A program made the translations under genes and the position numbers. Of a stretch of 24,509 nucleotides of DNA, positions 3,061-24,025 are shown piece after piece. The DNA lies in IMG/VR virus record IMGVR_UViG_3300025131_008761, positions 1-24,509 of that record; one strand, written 5' to 3'. The notes under the pieces were generated by a model, which was not told the origin of the DNA, did no database searches, and was given only the letters and a program-made list of their open reading frames with translations. The number at the start of each line of letters is the position of its first letter. Position 1 is the first letter of the stretch. The stretch comes from a virus.

Positions 3061-3273
3061 ATGTTAAAAGAATTATACTCACAATACGGCGAAATAATGG
3101 TACAGATGGAAGTTCTTCAGGCTAGATTGAATCAGGTAAAATCTTCAATCTTTGCGGAATTGAAACCCAAACAGGCAGAGCAGACTGAAACAACACTGGC
3201 ACCACCCGAACAATCAGGATGTTGTCCTGAAACAAATGGTGTTTGCGGTGGCCCTCCAGCAGTAGAGAACTAA
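3061..3273 (+). CDS. Small coiled-coil/Cys-tail hypothetical protein
   Basis: A 70-residue protein beginning MLKELYSQYGEIMVQMEVLQ. The N-terminal half is a predicted amphipathic helix with heptad-like spacing. The C-terminal third is Pro/Thr-rich and ends in a Cys cluster (SGCCPETNGVCGGPP). A TTG start at 3016 is possible in the same frame, but it adds a low-complexity Phe/Lys stretch and overlaps the previous gene; the ATG at 3061 gives a sensible protein. Neither start has an SD. The stop overlaps the convergent GMP-reductase-like gene by 4 bp. The function is unknown. Confidence 0.55.
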   Translation: MLKELYSQYGEIMVQMEVLQARLNQVKSSIFAELKPKQAEQTETTLAPPEQSGCCPETNGVCGGPPAVEN

Positions 3274-4220
3274 ATTATAGTCCAATCTGATTTTTTTTGA
3301 TATTCCGCAATGGTTCTAGAGTTCATGTAACTCATAGAACTTCTAAGGCCATTGCGGAATCGGTGTATGATTTTTTCCAAAGGACCAGTATATGGAATTA
3401 ATGTTTCCATACCCTCTACATATTTTGGCTTCTTATTTACCTGCTTTTGTGTAGAAAATGATGCCGCCCCTTTATATATTTTCATTAATTGTCCATCTAA
3501 TCTAAGTGTTTTAGAGGGACTTTCTTCTGTACCAGCAAAAATACAACCTGCCATACATATATCTGCTCCCAAAACTAAAGCTTTACATATATCTCGTGGC
3601 TCTTTTATTGAGCCATCAGCAATCAACATTGTTTTAGACTTAACCGATGCACATTCTAAAACAGAAGACGCCATAGGATAAAATAACCCTGTCTCTACAC
3701 GAGTTGTACAACTCGAACCTCCTGCTATCCCGCACCTAATTGCGTATATATTTAAATCACATAGCCATTCATAACACTCTTTACTTGCTACATTTCCAAC
3801 AGTAAAATATACATCTGAATAAAGGCTCATCAATTTTTCCAACGTAGCTTTTACTCTAGTATTTGCTCCATTTGCCACGTCTAAACAAAAACTACGACAT
3901 CCAGCAAATGCTAATTCTTGAAATCTTTCAAAGCAATCCCCATTAATTCCAATAGCACACCCACAATCACAATCTGCCAATTTATATTCATTAGCTTGTT
4001 CTTCTATAGTGTTAAACCTATGAATAAATCCATAAGCACCAAGCCGCAATAAATGACCAGCCATTGTCCCATCACATACATCCGGCATAGGGGCTGCGAT
4101 TAATGGTACAGTTAATTTTTGCCCCGCAAATTCTACTGATGTATCTGCCTCATCTCTACTATCCAACGTAGAAATGTTTCTTGATATCAATCCTATATCT
4201 GAATATTTTAAAGCACGCAT
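3270..4220 (-). CDS. GMP reductase / IMP dehydrogenase family enzyme
   Basis: A 316-residue TIM-barrel protein without the CBS insert of IMP dehydrogenase. Visible are STLDSRDEAD (17-26), VPLIAAPM (38-45), LDVANG (113-118), the catalytic loop GGSSCTTR with Cys171, TGLFYPMASSVLEC (177-190), ADGSIKEPRDICKALVLGAD (201-220), YKGAAS and the C-terminal GLRSSMSYM. The loop plus the following TG.xYPxxSxxxEC is closer to GMP reductase (NADPH-dependent GMP to IMP). The IMPDH Arg-Tyr flap dyad is not evident, although a relative with another purine substrate cannot be excluded. The start has a strong SD (AAAGGAG, 7 nt). It is the last gene of the minus-strand operon, directly downstream of the TnpB element. 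Confidence 0.82.
   Translation of the reverse strand: MRALKYSDIGLISRNISTLDSRDEADTSVEFAGQKLTVPLIAAPMPDVCDGTMAGHLLRLGAYGFIHRFNTIEEQANEYKLADCDCGCAIGINGDCFERFQELAFAGCRSFCLDVANGANTRVKATLEKLMSLYSDVYFTVGNVASKECYEWLCDLNIYAIRCGIAGGSSCTTRVETGLFYPMASSVLECASVKSKTMLIADGSIKEPRDICKALVLGADICMAGCIFAGTEESPSKTLRLDGQLMKIYKGAASFSTQKQVNKKPKYVEGMETLIPYTGPLEKIIHRFRNGLRSSMSYMNSRTIAEYQKKSDWTII
3302..3360 (-). repeat. Large inverted repeat (hairpin) inside the 3' end of the GMP-reductase-like gene
   Basis: A perfect 12-bp inverted repeat (ATTCCGCAATGG at 3302-3313 and its complement at 3349-3360) encloses a second stem (3314-3323 with 3329-3339, ten pairs, one bulged A) and a 5-nt loop. The whole structure lies in codons for GLRSSMSYMNSRTIAEY. 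No T-run follows on the minus strand; on the plus strand a T6 run comes about 10 nt after the stem. Confidence 0.6.
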
Positions 4221-4289: not shown

Positions 4290-5528
4290 CTAGCTCGCTG
4301 ACTCCAACTTGCTTACTTTAATACCATTGATTGCCACCAATGTTTCAAAAAAAGTAGAGGTTAAAATCTCCCTAGTCTTAAAATCCCTGTCGTCCACAGG
4401 TATTTGTTTCATTGCTTCTTCCTCAATGCAAATTGCAGATTTCCAATCTCTATCTTTCACAAATCCACAATCGCATGAATAAATTCTATCGCTTAAACTT
4501 AATTTATTTTTATTACCACAGTTAGGACAAAGTTGTGTACTTGGAAAAAACTTACTAACCATTATCGGCGTATGAGATTTGTGCTTCAAATCTCCAATAA
4601 TTCCACCAATATCTGAATTTTGTATCTTTTTTCCGTGACCACCACTCTGCCAAGCATGAATGCTTTCATCTTGGAAGCAAACATACTTGTTGTTTTTAAC
4701 AATAGCAGAAACTAATTTATGTCTAATATCTTTTTTCTTATTTGTAAGATATTCGTATTCAATTTTTCTTTTTCTTTTATCTTGTTCCTTCTTTTTAGAG
4801 GCAACTCTATTACCTCTCATTATTTTACGGTCAAGTCTTTTAATTCTTTTGCTAATTGGAACTTGAAATTTAACTTTAACTCCATTGCTAAAACTTAATT
4901 GTGTTTCACAACCAAAGTCTATTCCAATACTCATATCAGGAATAATACTTACTTTTTTATCCACATAAGTGGTAATATGTAAAAAGTAATCTTTGCCTTT
5001 TCTTATTAAGGTTGAATTAGCAATATCAGCATTGTCAGGTATTTGTTCAAGCCCATTAACTCTTAACCATTTTTTCTTCATGCCAGCAAGTTTGATTTTT
5101 TTATTTTCAAAATCAATATGATAAGTTCGTTTGTATTCTCTTAATGGGACTGAATTGAGTTCTCTTTTAAATTTCAATCGTCCTACTTTATATCCTTGTT
5201 TCTTTCTTGAAGACAGGGATTTTAACGAAGTAAATAATCTTTCTTTTATTGCTTGACGATGTTGAGTTTGCAGGACATTAAATTTCCTATCTTCGTATTC
5301 ATCTTTAACTTTGACTGGTACGCTCTTCAATGTGCAGTTTGCATCATTGATGTTTTTATTAGATAAACAGTAATTATAAAACCATTTTGCTTCTTTGAAC
5401 AAACTTGATAATCGCTTACGAATAAAGATTGATAGATGAGAACGGTCTATTTTACAAACATAAACTTTACAAGTTTGTGTTTTCCTTTTTTCTCTTGTAG
5501 CTAATCTTTTTGTAAATCGACTTAACAT
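4290..5528 (-). CDS. tnpB: TnpB-like RNA-guided nuclease (RuvC fold, zinc finger)
   Basis: A 412-residue protein of the TnpB (OrfB) family. The helical N-terminal region has an HTH-like segment (KRLSSLFKEAKWFYNYCL). RuvC-I is SIGIDFG with Asp204, RuvC-II is VCFQDES with Glu288, the zinc finger is CPNCG (334-338) plus CDC (352-354), and RuvC-III is DRDWKSA with Asp361. The acidic triad therefore looks intact, although the usual Asn of DxxxNAAxN is Lys. TnpB proteins are guide-RNA-directed DNA endonucleases that promote retention of their element. The ATG directly abuts the left-end hairpin and has no SD; an 18-residue basic leader precedes the usual N-terminus, so the true start is uncertain. 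No partner tnpA is adjacent. Confidence 0.88.
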   Translation of the reverse strand: MLSRFTKRLATREKRKTQTCKVYVCKIDRSHLSIFIRKRLSSLFKEAKWFYNYCLSNKNINDANCTLKSVPVKVKDEYEDRKFNVLQTQHRQAIKERLFTSLKSLSSRKKQGYKVGRLKFKRELNSVPLREYKRTYHIDFENKKIKLAGMKKKWLRVNGLEQIPDNADIANSTLIRKGKDYFLHITTYVDKKVSIIPDMSIGIDFGCETQLSFSNGVKVKFQVPISKRIKRLDRKIMRGNRVASKKKEQDKRKRKIEYEYLTNKKKDIRHKLVSAIVKNNKYVCFQDESIHAWQSGGHGKKIQNSDIGGIIGDLKHKSHTPIMVSKFFPSTQLCPNCGNKNKLSLSDRIYSCDCGFVKDRDWKSAICIEEEAMKQIPVDDRDFKTREILTSTFFETLVAINGIKVSKLESAS

Positions 5529-9286: not shown

Positions 9287-9333
9287 ACCTCTATATAGTT
9301 TTTATTTTTATTAAAAACCTCAATATATAAGAT

Positions 9334-9438
9334 ATGAGATTTAAAAAATATCTTCTGGAGCAAGAATATAAAAAAATGGACCGGGCGACTCAGGCTATCA
9401 ACAAAGAGCATACCAGCGATGGAACAAATAATGAGTAA
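9334..9438 (+). CDS. N-terminal part of a gene interrupted by an in-frame TAA
   Basis: ATG at 9334 opens MRFKKYLLEQEYKKMDRATQ, then AINKEHTSDGTNNE and a TAA at 9436-9438. The same frame then continues without another stop (KTSPYFSSFRELLDKWDENI and onward) straight into the protein starting at 9523, so 9334-9780 reads as one ~148-codon gene with a single internal stop. The opening MRFKKYLLEQ resembles short N-terminal peptides of phage virion or co-packaged proteins. No SD is visible (TATATAAGAT precedes the ATG). Alternatives are readthrough, reinitiation or a decayed gene. Confidence 0.5.
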   Translation: MRFKKYLLEQEYKKMDRATQAINKEHTSDGTNNE

Positions 9439-9780: not shown

Positions 9781-10466
9781 TGCCACTACCATTCAATATC
9801 CCAAATAAAAACAAACGCAAATACCAATGTTTCGTTTGCGGCATACAATTCGACAACGAAAATAATGATGGTTTTAAAAAATTCAAAGAACATATCATCG
9901 AAGAGCATGAAGAGGGTAGAGACTACATAATATGCCCGTTAAGCCGCTGTAGGTCACCTGTGAGGGACGTTCGTTCACATTTCAGGTGCAAACACCCTAG
10001 CGAATCAATTCCTAAAAAAGGAATGATGAAATCTATTGTGTGGCATGATATAGCATCAAAAAAAAGAAAAAAAACTCGTAAACCTAAATTCAGAGAAGGA
10101 TATTTTCAATCCTCTAAAATGAATAAGCCTCTCCACTATCGTTCGGGATATGAAAAAACAATCTACGAATGCCTAGATGCAGATGTCGAAGTAAACGCTT
10201 TTAATGTAGAACCTTTCAAAATTGCCTACTTGCACAAGGGAAAAGAACACAAATATATTCCAGATTTAATTGTGCAATTTATAGATGGCAGTACTGAAGT
10301 TTGGGAAATCAAACCAGCAAACCAAACTTTCTTAGAAGTGAATCAAAACAAATGGCGTTCAGCTAATAAAGCTTGTAAGAATAGAGGGTGGAAATTTGTT
10401 GTGATAACTGAAAAGGGAATCGACCTTCTTAAGAAAAAAATCAAAAATCAAAGGAACAATATTTAA
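9780..10466 (+). CDS. Zinc-finger plus PD-(D/E)XK nuclease, TnsA/T4 gp4 head-completion type
   Basis: A 228-residue protein. Two N-terminal C2H2-like fingers: C17xxC20 with H38 and H43, then C52, C57, H67 and C70/H72. After a basic linker (KKRKKTRKPK) comes a TnsA-like nuclease core: YRSGYEKTIYE (Glu125), HKYIPDLIV (Asp162) and EVWEIKPA (Glu176, Lys178), the E-D-ExK order of PD-(D/E)XK enzymes. T4 gp4 head-completion nuclease and related phage proteins have this core; the zinc fingers would guide DNA binding. A virion maturation role is inferred. It is translationally coupled to the upstream gene and shares a 4-bp stop overlap with the convergent HIT gene. Confidence 0.7.
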   Translation: MPLPFNIPNKNKRKYQCFVCGIQFDNENNDGFKKFKEHIIEEHEEGRDYIICPLSRCRSPVRDVRSHFRCKHPSESIPKKGMMKSIVWHDIASKKRKKTRKPKFREGYFQSSKMNKPLHYRSGYEKTIYECLDADVEVNAFNVEPFKIAYLHKGKEHKYIPDLIVQFIDGSTEVWEIKPANQTFLEVNQNKWRSANKACKNRGWKFVVITEKGIDLLKKKIKNQRNNI

Positions 10467-10909
10467 GTTTTGAAGTGATTCGGCTCCTGAACGTGCCAAT
10501 AATCAGCCTTCTTTGGAATCACCCATCTAATCCCACCTTTCGGGTCAGGAACGTCACCTTTATATCGTGGAATCACATGTATATGAGCATGAGGGACAGT
10601 TTGCCCAGCAGCCCATCCATCGTTAACGCCAATATTGAAAGAATCTGGATGTAATTCTACGGAAATATTATGACGTATTTCAGTCACGAAGGCCCATATA
10701 GATTGCTGAATTTCTGAAGACAAACTAAACAAACTGACTACATGCTGTTTTGGAACAATTAGCGTGTGCCCTTTAGAAACAGGAAATCGGTCTCTAAAAG
10801 CAATAGCGTATTCGTTTTGGTGTAATATGTCTATTTCGCCAAAATTACAAAATGGACAACTTGTTATAACTTCTTTATGACCCACTACAATTTCTTCTTT
10901 ATTAATCAT
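10463..10909 (-). CDS. HIT-family nucleotide hydrolase (Ap4A/adenylyl type)
   Basis: 148 residues from ATG at 10909. CPFC at 18-21 suggests a structural zinc site, followed by AFRDRFPVSKGHTLIVPKQH (37-56) and the histidine triad VPHAHIHVIPRY (His107, 109, 111), where the middle to last His act in nucleotidyl transfer. The trailing DVPDPKGGIRWVIPKKADYW is typical of diadenosine-polyphosphate hydrolase-like HIT proteins. An upstream ATG in frame (10969) would add 20 residues that overlap the zinc-ribbon gene and look non-coding. The start overlaps the zinc-ribbon stop by 8 bp. Likely cytosolic cleavage of dinucleoside polyphosphates or nucleotidyl-amidates; the exact substrate is unknown. Confidence 0.88.
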   Translation of the reverse strand: MINKEEIVVGHKEVITSCPFCNFGEIDILHQNEYAIAFRDRFPVSKGHTLIVPKQHVVSLFSLSSEIQQSIWAFVTEIRHNISVELHPDSFNIGVNDGWAAGQTVPHAHIHVIPRYKGDVPDPKGGIRWVIPKKADYWHVQEPNHFKT

Positions 10910-11084
10910 GATATTTAGGTGTCCAACCTTGTCCTTTGAATATAACTGCTGGTGGTGAAGTAATAACACGAACTAATTGCTTCTTGCCACATTTAGGACA
11001 TTTCTTTTTTGATTTATCCATCATTGGATGAAATATATCTGAATTTTTATTACAGGACTCGCAACGATATTCGTAAGTTGGCAT
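10902..11084 (-). CDS. FmdB-type zinc-ribbon protein
   Basis: 60 residues from ATG at 11084: MPTYEYRCESCNK with C8xxC11, then CPKC at 29-32, a four-cysteine zinc ribbon of the FmdB/regulatory-protein family, followed by LVRVITSPPAVIFKGQGW, the conserved tail. The upstream in-frame start at 11129 would add 15 residues inside the deaminase gene and is disfavoured. GGAG lies 9 nt before the chosen ATG, only one base after the deaminase stop. The family is widespread with unclear function, probably protein or nucleic-acid binding. Confidence 0.85.
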   Translation of the reverse strand: MPTYEYRCESCNKNSDIFHPMMDKSKKKCPKCGKKQLVRVITSPPAVIFKGQGWTPKYHD

Positions 11085-11085
11085 A

Positions 11086-11571
11086 TTATGGACTCCAAAT
11101 TTGTCCAGAATGACGTACTTCCGGCCCACCTATTTTCCCGTAATAATCCAACACTTCCACCCCTGCTTCTTTTAACTGTTGATTCGCAACTCGTATCTCT
11201 TCAGCCCAAAATTCTGGAGACCTTTTCTCTGCATCTTTATGCCTAACTAAACATTTTATTCCAGCTTGTATAATAGCTCTGGCACAATTAGTACATGGTG
11301 CCCACGGAGAAACCATTGTTAATCCATCAGTAGCAATCCCTTGTTTCGCCGCTTTATAAATTAAATTTCTCTCTGCATGTTCCACAAATTGATACTTAAG
11401 AGGTCTTTCCCATCTTTCTTCTGTATATAATACGCCAACCGGGAACTCGTTAATAGCTGCTAAAATAATAGACCCATCATCTATCAATAAAGCCGCATTT
11501 TGAGTTGATGGGTCTGGGCTTTTTACAGCTTCCTCATATGCTAGTTTTAATAATTCTTTCCAACTTTTCAT
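11086..11571 (-). CDS. dCMP deaminase-like zinc enzyme
   Basis: 161 residues from ATG at 11571 (MKSWKELLKLAYEEA). The zinc-deaminase signature is complete: HAE at 65-67 (VEHAERNLIYKAA) and PC-TNC at 92-96 (SPWAPCTNCARAII). Family members convert dCMP to dUMP, or cytidine/CMP-type substrates, feeding dTTP synthesis. A longer frame from 11649 would add a 26-residue basic leader read within the upstream gene's Lys-rich tail, and is rejected because AAGGA sits well before 11571. One base separates it from the upstream stop. No allosteric dCTP-binding region can be judged by eye. It is part of a nucleotide-metabolism operon. Confidence 0.85.
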   Translation of the reverse strand: MKSWKELLKLAYEEAVKSPDPSTQNAALLIDDGSIILAAINEFPVGVLYTEERWERPLKYQFVEHAERNLIYKAAKQGIATDGLTMVSPWAPCTNCARAIIQAGIKCLVRHKDAEKRSPEFWAEEIRVANQQLKEAGVEVLDYYGKIGGPEVRHSGQIWSP

Positions 11572-11572
11572 A

Positions 11573-12013
11573 TTATCCTTTTTTCTTCTTATTGTTCTTT
11601 TTCTTATCGGTTTTCTTGAGGGGCGTAACCTTCTTTGTTTTTTTATCATTTAAACCTTTTGTAGAAAATGTTTCTAAATCATCTAGCTCTTCAGGCAAAA
11701 CCCCTCTTTTAATCATTTCTTCATAATGAATAATAGCCATGGCATTAAACATAATTGCTGAAAGATGGTCTTCATCCGTCTTTCCTTGTTTAAACCACAT
11801 TAAATGTCTATTTAAAGAAGCGAGAGTACGAGACATAGGCATTCCCTTTTCCCAATTCCTCTCAGCATATCGTTTGGCCCCTAATCGCAACCACTCCCCC
11901 AACCGTTCTTCGGCGAACGGGGAAATTAAATCAGGTCTTGGTTTGCTCTCGGCTACATCCCGAACAGCACCAGTTTCAAATTGCTCATCACTACCAGATT
12001 GTTTAAGTTTCAT
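11573..12013 (-). CDS. dATP/dGTP diphosphohydrolase-like protein (DUF5664, MazZ-related)
   Basis: A 146-residue protein with RPDLISPFAEERLGEWLRLG, KRYAERNWEKG (47-57), ASLNRHLMWFKQGKTDEDHL (65-84) and AIMFNAMAIIHYEEM (86-100), the all-alpha MazG-like pattern of the DUF5664 family. A relative in cyanophage S-2L (MazZ) hydrolyses dGTP/dATP to the monophosphate and diphosphate. The tail (KKTKKVTPLKKTDKKKNNKK) is strongly basic. SD AGGAG 5 nt before ATG. It is the first gene of the minus-strand operon with the deaminase, zinc ribbon and HIT genes. The reaction is inferred from the family. Confidence 0.78.
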   Translation of the reverse strand: MKLKQSGSDEQFETGAVRDVAESKPRPDLISPFAEERLGEWLRLGAKRYAERNWEKGMPMSRTLASLNRHLMWFKQGKTDEDHLSAIMFNAMAIIHYEEMIKRGVLPEELDDLETFSTKGLNDKKTKKVTPLKKTDKKKNNKKKKG

Positions 12014-12088: not shown

Positions 12089-12436
12089 ATGCAAAAGAAA
12101 ATAATAAAAATAAAAGAAATCTTCAGTAAACAAAAAGAAATAAAACCTATATGTGGAAAATGCAGATTATTTGATTCAAAAGAAAACATCTGTCGTGTTC
12201 TCATTCTTCATGAGGGAGAAAAAATTAATCTACCTGTAGCGAAGAATGATTCTTGCTTTTTTGAAAACGAATTTCTGGCTTTGAATGAAGAGGGACATAA
12301 AGAATCATTTAAACCCGAAGTTCAGCAAGTCAAATTTTGGGTAGAAGATAAAAAAGGAAAAAAAACAAAGGGGGACGGAACTGTTAAAATCGAATATCCA
12401 GAAGGGTTTTTTGGAAACAGAGATAAAGAATCATAA
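12089..12436 (+). CDS. Cys-containing hypothetical protein
   Basis: A 115-residue protein: Lys-rich leader, then ICGKCRLFDSKENICRVLIL and KNDSCFFENEF give four Cys (C..C-x11-C-x~24-C), which may bind zinc or iron-sulfur. The C-terminal third is basic and Gly-rich (KKGKKTKGDGTVKIEYPEGF). There is no SD; TATAAAAA abuts the ATG. It reads in the same direction as the next Cys-rich gene 7 nt downstream, so the two are likely co-expressed. I do not recognise a function. Confidence 0.65.
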   Translation: MQKKIIKIKEIFSKQKEIKPICGKCRLFDSKENICRVLILHEGEKINLPVAKNDSCFFENEFLALNEEGHKESFKPEVQQVKFWVEDKKGKKTKGDGTVKIEYPEGFFGNRDKES

Positions 12437-15629: not shown

Positions 15630-16661
15630 TTATAAAGCAGTTTCTTTTGAATATAATGCCTCTTCCAAATTTTCTGGCACGAGCCATTTTGAAAGGTCGC
15701 CAAGTCCTTGCTGAGATATAAAATCTTCAACCTGTTTAGCACAAATTTCTCGTGCTTTTTCAGATAAAGAACCAGATAAATTTTCACGTATATTTTTCTG
15801 TATTCTGGCGATAAACCAGTTTCTTGTTTCTTCCAACCCTTTTGATAAAGGTTGGTCAAATCCTAGAAACTTCATTACATCACTAAAATCTAACCATAAA
15901 TATCCAGTCCAAGGATTGCCTTCTTTATATTTTTTAGGCCATGGTGCTTTTTTAGCCATCTCTATAAAATGAATGAGTAACCTCATCCAATTTTTTATTA
16001 GATAAGAATCAAGACATCCTTCGCCCTCAATAATTCGAAACTCTATAGTCTTTCTTTTACCTTTACATAAGTGATACGTATTGATGGTGTAATACTTCAT
16101 TACACCTAATAGTTCAACAAGCCACTCTCCATCAATTTTTGTATCATGTTGGAACTCTGCGCTTAGCCCCACCTGTTCACAATACTTGTTTCTTTTTCTT
16201 CTTGCTGGAACAGAATCCATAAATACAGATTCGCATTTAACAAACCAAGCAAGGGCTTTACCCAAACTCCTGTTGTCAAAATCAGCTACTTCGACATGAA
16301 TATGAAATCCACATTTATCATCAACGGCAACTTCAGGGTTCGTTTTCATCAATTCAACGGCTGTACATACATCTCTGATGCCACGCCATCCTTTAATGAC
16401 AGGAGAGCACACCTCAATGCCAGCCGATGAATCGGGCTTTAATACCCATGATTCATTATTATGAGTATGCTCCCACTTATTGACGACGACCTGAGCATTC
16501 AACCCTTCCATTAAGGTTTCTGCAACTTCGTCAATACCCACAGGCATTTCATTACCGTGTAGGGGGTTAGTTTTGAAATCCCGATGGTCAAAAGAGCATA
16601 TTTCTATCTCCGCTCCAAACCTACGGCAAGAATCGAACTTTAAAACATTTTCTGAATCCAT
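15630..16661 (-). CDS. Amidoligase (COOH-NH2 ligase) family protein
   Basis: A 343-residue protein with the order of the putative amidoligase family (glutamine synthetase/gamma-GCS-like fold): RFGAEIEIC (14-22), WVLKPDSSAGIEVCSP (72-87), CGFHIHVEV (117-125), RKTIEFRIIEGE (203-214) and IKNWMRLLIHFIEMA (222-236). The GAEIE and EFR acidic residues would bind Mg-ATP. Such enzymes form amide or isopeptide bonds and in phages are thought to modify cell-wall peptides, proteins or surface molecules; the substrate here is unknown. AGGA precedes ATG in a 13-base sequence shared with the glycosyltransferase leader. It is divergent from the winged-helix gene. Confidence 0.82.
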   Translation of the reverse strand: MDSENVLKFDSCRRFGAEIEICSFDHRDFKTNPLHGNEMPVGIDEVAETLMEGLNAQVVVNKWEHTHNNESWVLKPDSSAGIEVCSPVIKGWRGIRDVCTAVELMKTNPEVAVDDKCGFHIHVEVADFDNRSLGKALAWFVKCESVFMDSVPARRKRNKYCEQVGLSAEFQHDTKIDGEWLVELLGVMKYYTINTYHLCKGKRKTIEFRIIEGEGCLDSYLIKNWMRLLIHFIEMAKKAPWPKKYKEGNPWTGYLWLDFSDVMKFLGFDQPLSKGLEETRNWFIARIQKNIRENLSGSLSEKAREICAKQVEDFISQQGLGDLSKWLVPENLEEALYSKETAL

Positions 16662-21076: not shown

Positions 21077-21679
21077 TTATTTTTGAATTATTCCAATTCC
21101 ATATCTTGTATTAAAAATAATAGGCACACGATTTTTTATATGACAAAAATCATCAAATCCACAATTAGACCCTATGTAATCAACTACTATCAACCCATCT
21201 AGCTTAATGTGCTCCCATAAAATATCTAATCTGGCTATTTGGTCTTCACTAGAAACTTCCCCGTTTACAATAGCAATATCCCATGAATCTTTAGATAATC
21301 CCTCTTGAGCTTCCTCGATAGTTCCTTCACAGATATCAAATTTTTTATGATAATTATTCTTTATGTTGGAAACCCCCATACGTGAAGAATAAAACTTCTC
21401 TGTATTCTCATGAAATACAAACATATTCTCAACTGTATTGTTCCCCTTCAAAAAACAACCACTATAAAGACCCAAATTAAAATTCCACCCAATTAAGCTC
21501 TTAGCACCTACTCTTTTCCCTAAATGATAATATAAAGGAAAATATAAAGGGTCTTGATAAGCTCCAGTTAATCTAGGCTTGTCTGAAAGTAATCGAAAAT
21601 TACCAAGCAAAACGCTGGAGCTTATTGTTTGTTTTTTCAGGTCTTCCTGTAATCCGAGTTGTAACGATTGTATATCCAT
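21077..21679 (-). CDS. Class I methyltransferase-like (Rossmann) protein
   Basis: A 200-residue protein. RVGAKSLIGWNFNLGLYSGC could be the glycine-rich strand-turn, WDIAIVNGEVSSEDQIARLD the motif IV region, and LDILWEHIKLDGLIVVDYIG the motif VI/VII strand, a pattern close to Methyltransf_24-type enzymes. The canonical GxGxG is not intact, so cofactor binding is uncertain and it may be a degenerate or related Rossmann protein. The ATG follows directly after the T-run of an intrinsic terminator and has no SD. Either the gene is controlled by antitermination at that hairpin or a later start and an internal promoter are used. Confidence 0.5.
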   Translation of the reverse strand: MDIQSLQLGLQEDLKKQTISSSVLLGNFRLLSDKPRLTGAYQDPLYFPLYYHLGKRVGAKSLIGWNFNLGLYSGCFLKGNNTVENMFVFHENTEKFYSSRMGVSNIKNNYHKKFDICEGTIEEAQEGLSKDSWDIAIVNGEVSSEDQIARLDILWEHIKLDGLIVVDYIGSNCGFDDFCHIKNRVPIIFNTRYGIGIIQK

Positions 21680-21719
21680 AAAAAAAGGGAACCCAAAAGA
21701 AACAATCTTTTGAACCCCC
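21680..21719 (-). terminator. Intrinsic terminator abutting the methyltransferase-like start
   Basis: On the minus strand a 14-pair stem (21719-21706 with 21700-21687, four G-U, none mismatched), 5-nt loop, then T7 at 21686-21680, and the ATG at 21679 follows at once. It ends the candidate structured RNA and could act as an attenuator for the downstream gene. Confidence 0.8.
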
Positions 21720-21891
21720 TTACCTCGGCCCGAGATTTTGTATATCTCTTTGCGATTCCATTGAGTTGTGCCTTACAAAGCATCCAACCCTCGTGTTAAC
21801 TTCTCGCTGCCCTAACAAAACGATGTGCCATCCACACGAACAGACACATTCGCCTTCTTTGTTAAAACTGAAGACGAAACTAACCAAGGCA
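21680..21891 (-). ncRNA. Candidate structured non-coding RNA (~210 nt), family unknown
   Basis: The stretch between the UvsY-like and methyltransferase-like genes has no ORF above about 26 codons on the minus strand but folds strongly. A closing helix pairs 21891-21882 with 21730-21721 (ten pairs, four G-U). Inside are stem 1 (21852-21843 with 21829-21821, nine pairs, one bulge), stem 2 (21792-21763: three helices of 3, 3 and 5 bp around loop UGUA) and stem 3 (21748-21732, five pairs). A terminator follows. This may be an independent phage small RNA or the 5' regulatory leader (riboswitch or attenuator-like) of the downstream gene. It does not match 6S, tmRNA or RNase P as far as I can recall them. 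Confidence 0.55.
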
Positions 21892-21892
21892 T

Positions 21893-21898
21893 ATTATA
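21893..21898 (-). promoter_or_regulatory. Candidate -10 box before the structured RNA
   Basis: Minus-strand TATAAT; an alternative TATAGT lies at 21914-21909. The first would start the RNA inside its closing helix, the second (start near 21902) would include it completely. No good -35 accompanies either. Confidence 0.3.
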
Positions 21899-21920
21899 TA
21901 TTCTTAATACTATAATTTTT

Positions 21921-22436
21921 TTAATCATCTTTTGAAGAAGCTATAATTTCATCTACTTCTTGGTCTAAACTGCCATCCATCTTATTTTTTGCAAAGGTGT
22001 CACGATTTAGCTTATCTATTTCTTTTCTAAGCATGTGTCCTCTACTTTGTGCGTTTTCATGGCACTTATCCCACGCACGTAAATGCTGCTGTAATACCTT
22101 AACTTTATGTCGAGCAGCAATTTCATGGTCCTTGGCCTTCTTGACTTCATCATCACTTTTTACCCGTGCCTCAACAAATTTATCTGAGCCACCTTCTGAT
22201 TTGAATTGGGCAAACTTTTCTGAACTCATTTGGTCATGTTTAGCAGAAAAAACCTGCCACTCCGCATCAGCGTCCGCAAGCCGTTGACCAAAATAATTAT
22301 ACCATACACCTTCTTCTTCTGTATATTTGGTGAGAGTGACCTCTGAAAACGTAAGCTTTTTAGGGTCTATAACTACGTCCTGACCAGCCACTTTTATTGT
22401 TCGCAATCCATCTAAAATATCATCTAATGTTACCAT
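21921..22436 (-). CDS. uvsY: UvsY-like recombination mediator
   Basis: A 171-residue, mostly helical charged protein. The opening VTLDDILDGLRTIKVAGQDV then VIDPKKLTFSEVTLTKY, the stretch SDKFVEARVKSDDEVKKAKD, and LRAWDKCHENAQSRGHMLRK follow the order of T4 UvsY landmarks (IDSTKLQYEA..., MKTVLSADKDVLK, LLDFCSGALDAIKSRGFAIK). UvsY loads UvsX onto gp32-covered ssDNA. It is slightly longer than T4 UvsY (137 aa, recalled) and has a more acidic tail (DQEVDEIIASSKDD). SD GAAGGA; the ATG is 2 nt after the helicase stop. The context (helicase, gp32-like, UvsX-like genes on the same strand) supports the call. Confidence 0.62.
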   Translation of the reverse strand: MVTLDDILDGLRTIKVAGQDVVIDPKKLTFSEVTLTKYTEEEGVWYNYFGQRLADADAEWQVFSAKHDQMSSEKFAQFKSEGGSDKFVEARVKSDDEVKKAKDHEIAARHKVKVLQQHLRAWDKCHENAQSRGHMLRKEIDKLNRDTFAKNKMDGSLDQEVDEIIASSKDD

Positions 22437-22438
22437 TT

Positions 22439-24025
22439 TTATCCTTCCATTCTAAAATTAACTTCCCTCTGATTATTGTCTATAAAATTTCTTACTTTCT
22501 GGTCGTCGTTCATTATACTTGTTGTGGTTTCTTCTTTAGTGTTACGATATTCTTTTAATATCTTTGAATATTTCTCATAACTAATCTCTTTAATTGTCAA
22601 CGTATCATAATTAATTTCCACATGAAAAGAAAATCTGCTCTTTCCAGACCTATGTTTGGCCACATATATTCGAGCAAGACCACAATCTTTCTCTTCTTGC
22701 AATTGATTTATAGTCCACATAGCATCAAGCGGTTTTATCTGTGCATAAGAATCACCGAGATTTTCATCATCAATCAATTGACCACTTCTAATAACTTCTT
22801 TAGCAGACCTATTTGGCTGCATTGCGGTTAAAACTAAAACATTTTCTTCTACAGCAAATCCACGTAAATCTCTTGTCATTCTATATCTTGATTCATGCGT
22901 TGGAATTCCAGCATAATCTTTCATTTCTCCAATATAATCAATTATGACTAAATCAGGATGAAATCCACGTAACCCTAGCTGAGAGTGATATGCACGAAAT
23001 GAAGCCATATCCATCTGACCACCGGGGAACTGTTTAATTACCAACATTCGTTCTTCTTCGCAAACATCATCTTGGTATTCTTTAACAAAATCAAAAACAA
23101 GTTGTTTTTTATCAAGTAAATTATTTATCGTAATTTTATCTTCATCCCCAACATCGGGATTTTGAATCATACTAGATAATTCAGCATCAAATCTTTCTGC
23201 AACACCATCTTGGTCAATTTCAAGTGATATATATAATACTTTTTTCTTGTTGGTAATATTAGCAATTGCCGCCACTTTTAAAGCTAAAGATTTACCCGTT
23301 CCACTTAATCCAACCCAAGAACCAATTTCTCCTCGCTTCATACCTTCACCAGCAAGAGCTACATCAATAGCTTTAAAACCAGAAGTAAATCGGTCTTGCA
23401 TTTCCACATCTTTATTCATCCTATCATATCTTTCTTCTATCGTTTGAAAATAATCTAAACCAAAATCAAAATTATGCTCAACAGTCAATGCTTCTCTAAG
23501 CACATCATGAATAGTTTCCCATGTGTCATCTGATTCTGGGTCTTCTTTGATGGCCTGTAAAGATTCATGAAATGCTTGCTTTAAAGCTTGTGTCTTTGCA
23601 AAATTAACAATCTTATCCCTATAATAGTCTCTCGACTCCATACCGGGAAGATAGTCTAAAATAATTTCATTATATTCTCCAACATGGAGAACTTTAATCT
23701 CATCTGCTTTGCCATCAAGCTTCCCGTTAAGTTCATTAATCATTTGAACTCTACTGGGAAGCGTTTGATAATTTTCAAAATGTTTAAAAAGAATTTCACA
23801 AATATGACGATGATTTTCATTTATGAAATAATTAGGTTTTATAATAGCTAAACTTTCTAATAAGAAATTTCGGTCATGTAAAAGAAGACCAAGTAATTCT
23901 CTTTGAAAATCCTCATCCCATTTATAGACATTAGTTTTCTCTGCATCATCAGGGTTAACTAGCTTAGACAATTCTGCCGCTTCTTCTTTAGTTAACTCTA
24001 TGGGTAATTGTTCAATTTCATCCAT
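22439..24025 (-). CDS. DnaB-family replicative helicase (T4 gp41-like)
   Basis: A 528-residue protein. The N-terminal ~185 residues are helical (DnaB-N like: ELLGLLLHDRNFLLESLAII). The RecA-type motor contains Walker A GLSGTGKS (239-246), SLEID with Glu269 as likely catalytic base, Walker B LVIIDYIGEM (Asp363), then RYRMTRDLRGFAVEENVLVL, a motif with AMQPNR and LGDSYAQIKPLDAM. It unwinds duplex DNA 5'-3' ahead of the replication fork as a hexamer and in T4-like phages works with primase gp61 and loader gp59, neither of which is in this window. The ATG at 24025 has a poor SD. It is coupled to the UvsY-like gene downstream. Confidence 0.85.
   Translation of the reverse strand: MDEIEQLPIELTKEEAAELSKLVNPDDAEKTNVYKWDEDFQRELLGLLLHDRNFLLESLAIIKPNYFINENHRHICEILFKHFENYQTLPSRVQMINELNGKLDGKADEIKVLHVGEYNEIILDYLPGMESRDYYRDKIVNFAKTQALKQAFHESLQAIKEDPESDDTWETIHDVLREALTVEHNFDFGLDYFQTIEERYDRMNKDVEMQDRFTSGFKAIDVALAGEGMKRGEIGSWVGLSGTGKSLALKVAAIANITNKKKVLYISLEIDQDGVAERFDAELSSMIQNPDVGDEDKITINNLLDKKQLVFDFVKEYQDDVCEEERMLVIKQFPGGQMDMASFRAYHSQLGLRGFHPDLVIIDYIGEMKDYAGIPTHESRYRMTRDLRGFAVEENVLVLTAMQPNRSAKEVIRSGQLIDDENLGDSYAQIKPLDAMWTINQLQEEKDCGLARIYVAKHRSGKSRFSFHVEINYDTLTIKEISYEKYSKILKEYRNTKEETTTSIMNDDQKVRNFIDNNQREVNFRMEG

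Follow-up and report, generated by a model that had tools for sequence, protein, structure and literature searches.

A conserved pseudoknotted RNA element near the replication genes of large phages

The window analysed here, a virus record of 24,509 nucleotides (24.5 kb), contains on its minus strand a structured element (21891-21680) between the end of one open reading frame at 21921 and the start of the next at 21679. The element is ~210 nt long including a terminator and consists of an RNA domain of ~165 nt followed by that terminator. A first-pass annotation of the window left two options for this stretch, namely, a phage small RNA or a regulatory leader that switches between termination and readthrough into the gene behind it. 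Which of the two is the better description, and is the fold itself real?

Fold and gene neighbourhood of the element

The annotation was right to regard the stretch as non-coding. The sole listed open reading frame above 50 aa through the region on the minus strand is a 55-aa frame with a TTG start, and it is interrupted in two close relatives (L005 and L006). The proposed folding test against dinucleotide shuffles was equally clear: the minimum free energy of positions 21670-21905 is -68.8 kcal/mol, versus -53.1 ± 3.8 kcal/mol for the shuffles (z = -4.2), and none of the 200 shuffled sequences folds as well. Two homologues have z-scores of -3.2 and -4.1. Folding of a single sequence alone is weak evidence, and such values could come from a chance fold of AT-rich intergenic DNA next to an ordinary terminator, a reading to which we return with the homologues.

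The RNA domain is a junction closed by helix P1, all parts being on the minus strand. The 5' strand of P1 (21883-21890) pairs with its 3' strand (21722-21729), and the helix extends to 21891-21882, so that the long-range closing helix of the annotation (21891-21882 with 21730-21721) is present. Compensatory changes are found in 8/8 pairs of P1. The joining strand J1/2 (21869-21882) contains a single-stranded GUCUUCA (21875-21869) kept in most members. P2 (21809-21868) forms a long hairpin, interrupted by an internal loop and composed of P2a (21868-21861/21816-21809), lower P2b (21853-21850/21823-21820) and upper P2b (21848-21843/21829-21824); its pairs show compensatory changes in 18/18 cases, with 92-96% of alignment cells paired. 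P3 (21763-21790) has the form GGGUUG-GA-UGCUU...AGGCA-CAACUC, with compensatory changes in 9/11 pairs and with both the GA bulge and a U-G wobble conserved. P4 (21732-21748) is a short hairpin, GAGAU...AUCUC, with compensatory changes in 4/5 pairs. All three internal stems described earlier thus exist as hairpins; what that description missed are a pseudoknot, a promoter-like box at 21898-21893 and the GA bulge of the third hairpin. By eye, J1/2 (CGAUCC) could additionally pair with the internal loop of P2 (GGAUCG), for example, in L023. This pairing fits the window and the group of L020, L023 and L080 and fails in some members, and we do not claim it.

Downstream on the same strand lies a gene for a 200-aa protein (F1, 21077-21679) of the conserved family A11, for which no convincing PDB relative was found. 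Its methyltransferase-like label has a weak basis, since the match to Methyltransf_24 (E 2.8e-4) is below the Pfam cut-off. The upstream gene (F4, 21921-22436, minus strand) encodes 171 aa and is UvsY-like by position only; the position agrees with the label given earlier, and the sequence has no PHROG match. It is preceded by a DnaB-like replicative helicase gene (F3, 22439-24025, minus strand; phrog_19, E 1e-62), which served as the synteny anchor. Elsewhere, the minus strand of the window carries an IMP dehydrogenase/GMP reductase-like gene (3270-4220), a HIT-domain gene (10463-10969), a dCMP/cytidine deaminase-like gene (11086-11649) and an amidoligase-like gene (15630-16661).

Homologues, covariation and the pseudoknot

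Protein searches with the neighbouring genes led to close relatives with the same flanking genes, in which the RNA is 84-99% identical and carries compensatory changes, and a BLAST match in L020 revealed a distant copy in a different gene context. A covariance model built from four close sequences (R1) recovered L020, L023, L007, L025, L013 and L031 and then L080, L083, L105, L063 and L109, the distant homologues having E values of 1e-16 to 7e-5. Models R2 and R3 added L062, L081, L085, L104, L136, L009/L059 and L011/L061, as well as L074, L090, L091 and L097. Altogether, the covariance models recover about 25 distinct homologues, with E values as low as 1e-33. These lie in phage contigs of IMG/VR, among them contigs of 225, 245, 259, 343, 435 and, as the largest, 527 kb. 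Whole-record scans found one copy of the RNA per record.

Outside this set, the 595-kb record of an uncultured phage, LR756511.1, probably holds a weak, divergent copy directly upstream of a methyltransferase-like gene (best match 17.2 bits, E 0.0027). This copy is only probable because the match comes from an unfiltered 10-kb scan and default whole-record scans did not report it. In named phages, DNA similarity searches with the window gave chance matches only, and R3 gave no match in Atu_ph07 or Phosso. Both R3 matches in the E. coli phage EcS1 are weak and the better one overlaps annotated genes, and they were taken as chance. A scan of genome contigs pointed to one contig of phage type, from a Neisseriaceae MAG, but showed no clear copy in it. 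A pattern scan for the P3 hairpin recovered the members already known and, in coding DNA, four chance matches.

Pairing was counted on two alignments. The first, made by hand, comprises 11 sequences, with gaps written as N and insertions trimmed, and the aligner introduced no gaps into it. In it 96.0% of the cells are paired and both-sided changes occur in 44/48 pairs; none of 500 shuffles reaches any of the measures, and versions with slid strands are 36-45% paired. This alignment was built towards the proposed structure and is biased to it. Therefore, pairs were also counted on a model-made alignment of 19 members fitted to the same secondary structure (A9), where 91.6% of the cells are paired and 39/42 pairs show compensatory changes. 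The fold has been kept while the letters changed almost everywhere across about 25 distinct relatives. Such compensatory base changes in homologues, which the annotation had named as a check, are what is expected of a conserved structural RNA. They refute chance folding, against which the recovery of held-out members by the covariance models also speaks, leaving that reading with practically no probability.

A cleaner test is provided by the 6-bp pseudoknot, because A9 is already fitted to the modelled secondary structure, whereas covariance models cannot encode the pseudoknot helix and A9 was made without it. Strand a (UCGUGU, 21839-21834), in the apical loop of P2, pairs with strand b (ACACGA, 21796-21791), located immediately 5' of P3; a conserved GGAU (21833-21830) lies just 3' of strand a. 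On A9, 99.1% of the pseudoknot cells are paired and all six pairs show compensatory change, and sliding the strands by 1-3 columns lowers the pairing to 5-61%. The window's UCGUGU/ACACGA is replaced by CCGUAU/AUACGG in L020, CCAUGC/GCAUGG in L007 and L083, UCAUGU/ACAUGA in L025, CUGUGC/GCACAG in L013 and L063, UCGCAU/GUGCGA in L062, CCAUGA/UCAUGG in L081, CCAUAU/AUAUGG in L085 and CCGCAU/AUGCGG in L104. In L103 and L109 the helix requires a small shift or bulge.

A stand-alone RNA gene or a leader

The fold, pseudoknot and terminator are conserved as a unit, at a fixed site, in a clade of large phages. The intrinsic terminator (21721-21680, minus strand; -16.7 kcal/mol, z -4.0) is contiguous with P1. 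Nearly all members have such a terminator after the RNA, and in those inspected its hairpin begins 0-5 nt after P1. Of the earlier description, the run of seven T residues stands, and the 14 pairs are corrected to 16 bp. In the group of L020, L023 and L080, the terminator loop (approximately CAUGAACGUGUARUGUU, at about 7395-7412 in L020, with matching loops in L023 and L080) is more conserved than a terminator needs. At the other end, a promoter-like -10 box, TATAAT (21898-21893, minus strand), is found just before the closing helix. TATA[TA][AT] occurs within 26 nt upstream in 13/21 members, whereas the frequency across the locus predicts 0.9 and shuffling of the upstream sequence 4.2; the exact box is missing in the other 8/21. 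Both promoter and terminator are consensus matches at the sequence level.

The order of the locus is helicase, F4, variable genes, RNA, variable genes, methyltransferase-like gene, F6, F7, SSB and UvsX, with the RNA always between helicase/F4 and the methyltransferase-like gene. This anatomy can be read in terms of a cis-acting leader or riboswitch, in which sensing of a ligand or protein controls the terminator and hence the operon of the methyltransferase-like gene, SSB and UvsX. A closed P1, a pseudoknotted junction and a terminator directly behind are riboswitch-like, the methyltransferase-like gene is next in most members, and the ATG is close to the T-run in the window clade, L084 and L085. 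In the window, the ATG (21679-21677) abuts the T-run, as the annotation had noted of the terminator end, and some readthrough control is therefore possible in this clade. The ATG there follows the T-run without room for a ribosome-binding site, which makes the expression of the gene in this clade puzzling.

However, in a riboswitch or attenuator the 5' arm of the terminator would be mutually exclusive with an upstream helix, and here P1 (21729-21722) and the terminator (21721-21680) lie side by side, a single fold contains both, and no antiterminator is evident. A constant gene or pathway directly downstream is likewise not found, since the next gene is deoxyribosyltransferase-like in L007, phosphatase-like in L031 and different again in others, and F1 in L103 comes only after an intervening minus-strand ORF. 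Moreover, at least eight phages have a separate structured leader in front of F1. For these reasons, the switch option of the annotation is disfavoured and a leader function of the RNA appears unlikely.

The leader of the methyltransferase-like gene is a second structured element, present in L077 (about 3530-3580), L073 (about 9290-9340), L066 (about 12150-12200), L063 (about 11305-11360), L080, L083, L057 and L062. It consists of a sequence-variable stem of 7-10 bp and a strongly conserved loop of ~30 nt, UCRAGUC...CAAUU.GGGCGAUAGG, with fold z-scores of -4.5 and -4.8, and in most phages carrying it, it lies behind its own TATATAA-like box. This element is absent in the window and matches no Rfam family; it resembles a small riboswitch or an operator bound by a protein.

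The main element is, in our view, probably a stand-alone gene whose product is a structured phage RNA of about 210 nt, because the next gene varies, opposite-strand genes can intervene (the preceding gene is on the opposite strand in L020 and L031) and a separate promoter-like box and leader often precede the methyltransferase-like gene. The 'phage small RNA' option is thus the one favoured by a discrete unit with a conserved fold, a promoter-like box and a terminator. Judging from these signals, the RNA would be transcribed independently on the minus strand, from the putative promoter at ~21898 to the terminator at ~21680, and would fold into a P1-closed multi-helix junction locked by the pseudoknot. 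It may then act in trans on a protein of phage or host, to which it would be a compact scaffold or a ligand, either in a ribonucleoprotein or as a protein-regulating RNA. The conserved unpaired motifs, namely, GUCUUCA, the GGAU following the pseudoknot strand and the GA bulge, would be the contact sites. Such short single strands seem better suited to tertiary contacts or to contacts with protein than to antisense pairing over a long stretch, and with so little unpaired sequence conserved, base-pairing to targets is the less likely mode.

The nearness to helicase, SSB and UvsX suggests, by position only, a link to replication or recombination, and the fixed place beside the replication module together with the single copy suggests a core role. 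That the RNA is a core, once-per-genome cofactor of the large-phage lineage, working in a replication or transcription ribonucleoprotein, is a tentative idea that we hold to be possible but doubtful; phage RNAs of this kind are not known to have such a class of function. The same two features, single copy and constant proximity to replication genes, would also suit an origin-linked transcript that forms an R-loop or primer beside the helicase and UvsY-like genes, as at the T4 origin ori(uvsY). However, in a single test on 220 kb of the G006 contig, the cumulative GC skew has no extreme at the RNA, and the compensatory pairing points to a folded RNA rather than a hybrid. We regard an origin role as very improbable.

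Comparison with known RNAs

The Rfam 15 scan covered 4227 models, including 6S, tmRNA, RNase P, GOLLD, ROOL, HEARO and riboswitches. In the window no family reached its gathering score, and over the RNA itself there was nothing even at E <= 10; five homologous loci gave none at E <= 0.5, and 20 member loci gave only two sub-threshold chance matches (E 0.11 and 0.72). These searches agree with the first-pass impression that the RNA does not resemble 6S, tmRNA, RNase P, GOLLD or ROOL. No description of the RNA was found in the literature search, which covered mostly open-access papers, so that priority is uncertain. The family has no relatives among the Rfam models, while nearly all of its pairs covary, those of the pseudoknot included. 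Several of the contigs that carry it are as large as huge-phage genomes (225-527 kb), and the consensus and the covariance model would allow direct tests once a phage and its host are in culture. A TnpB-like ORF of 412 aa (4290-5528, minus strand), with a Cas12f1-like TNB domain and a PHROG transposase assignment, is also encoded in the window. A TnpB/IscB guide RNA (omega/re-RNA), which would abut its nuclease gene and end in a guide, was considered and rejected, since this ORF is ~16 kb away and the RNA ends in a terminator.

In overall anatomy, SAM-I-type riboswitches are similar, with a P1-closed junction, a pseudoknot that involves the P2 loop and a terminator that follows. Unlike them, the present RNA has no overlap of P1 with the terminator, shows weak sequence conservation and lacks a constant regulated gene. 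The stable RNAs C and D of T4 are also small, structured RNAs of a T4-type phage, but are sited in the tRNA cluster; homology to these was compared through Rfam only. The manA and wcaG motifs of T4-like cyanophages (PMC2864571) are structured RNA motifs from metagenomic T4-like phages as well. They typically sit in the 5' UTRs of metabolic genes, whereas the RNA described here has its own terminator, varying downstream genes and no Rfam match. GOLLD and ROOL (PMC12286853) are, like it, phage-encoded structured noncoding RNAs with elaborate folds and a role not established, but they are far larger and often located near tRNA islands, whereas the present RNA domain of ~165 nt is followed by a terminator and lies near replication genes. 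Structured phage RNAs of the GOLLD and ROOL kind were already known, and what appears to be new is the RNA family itself.
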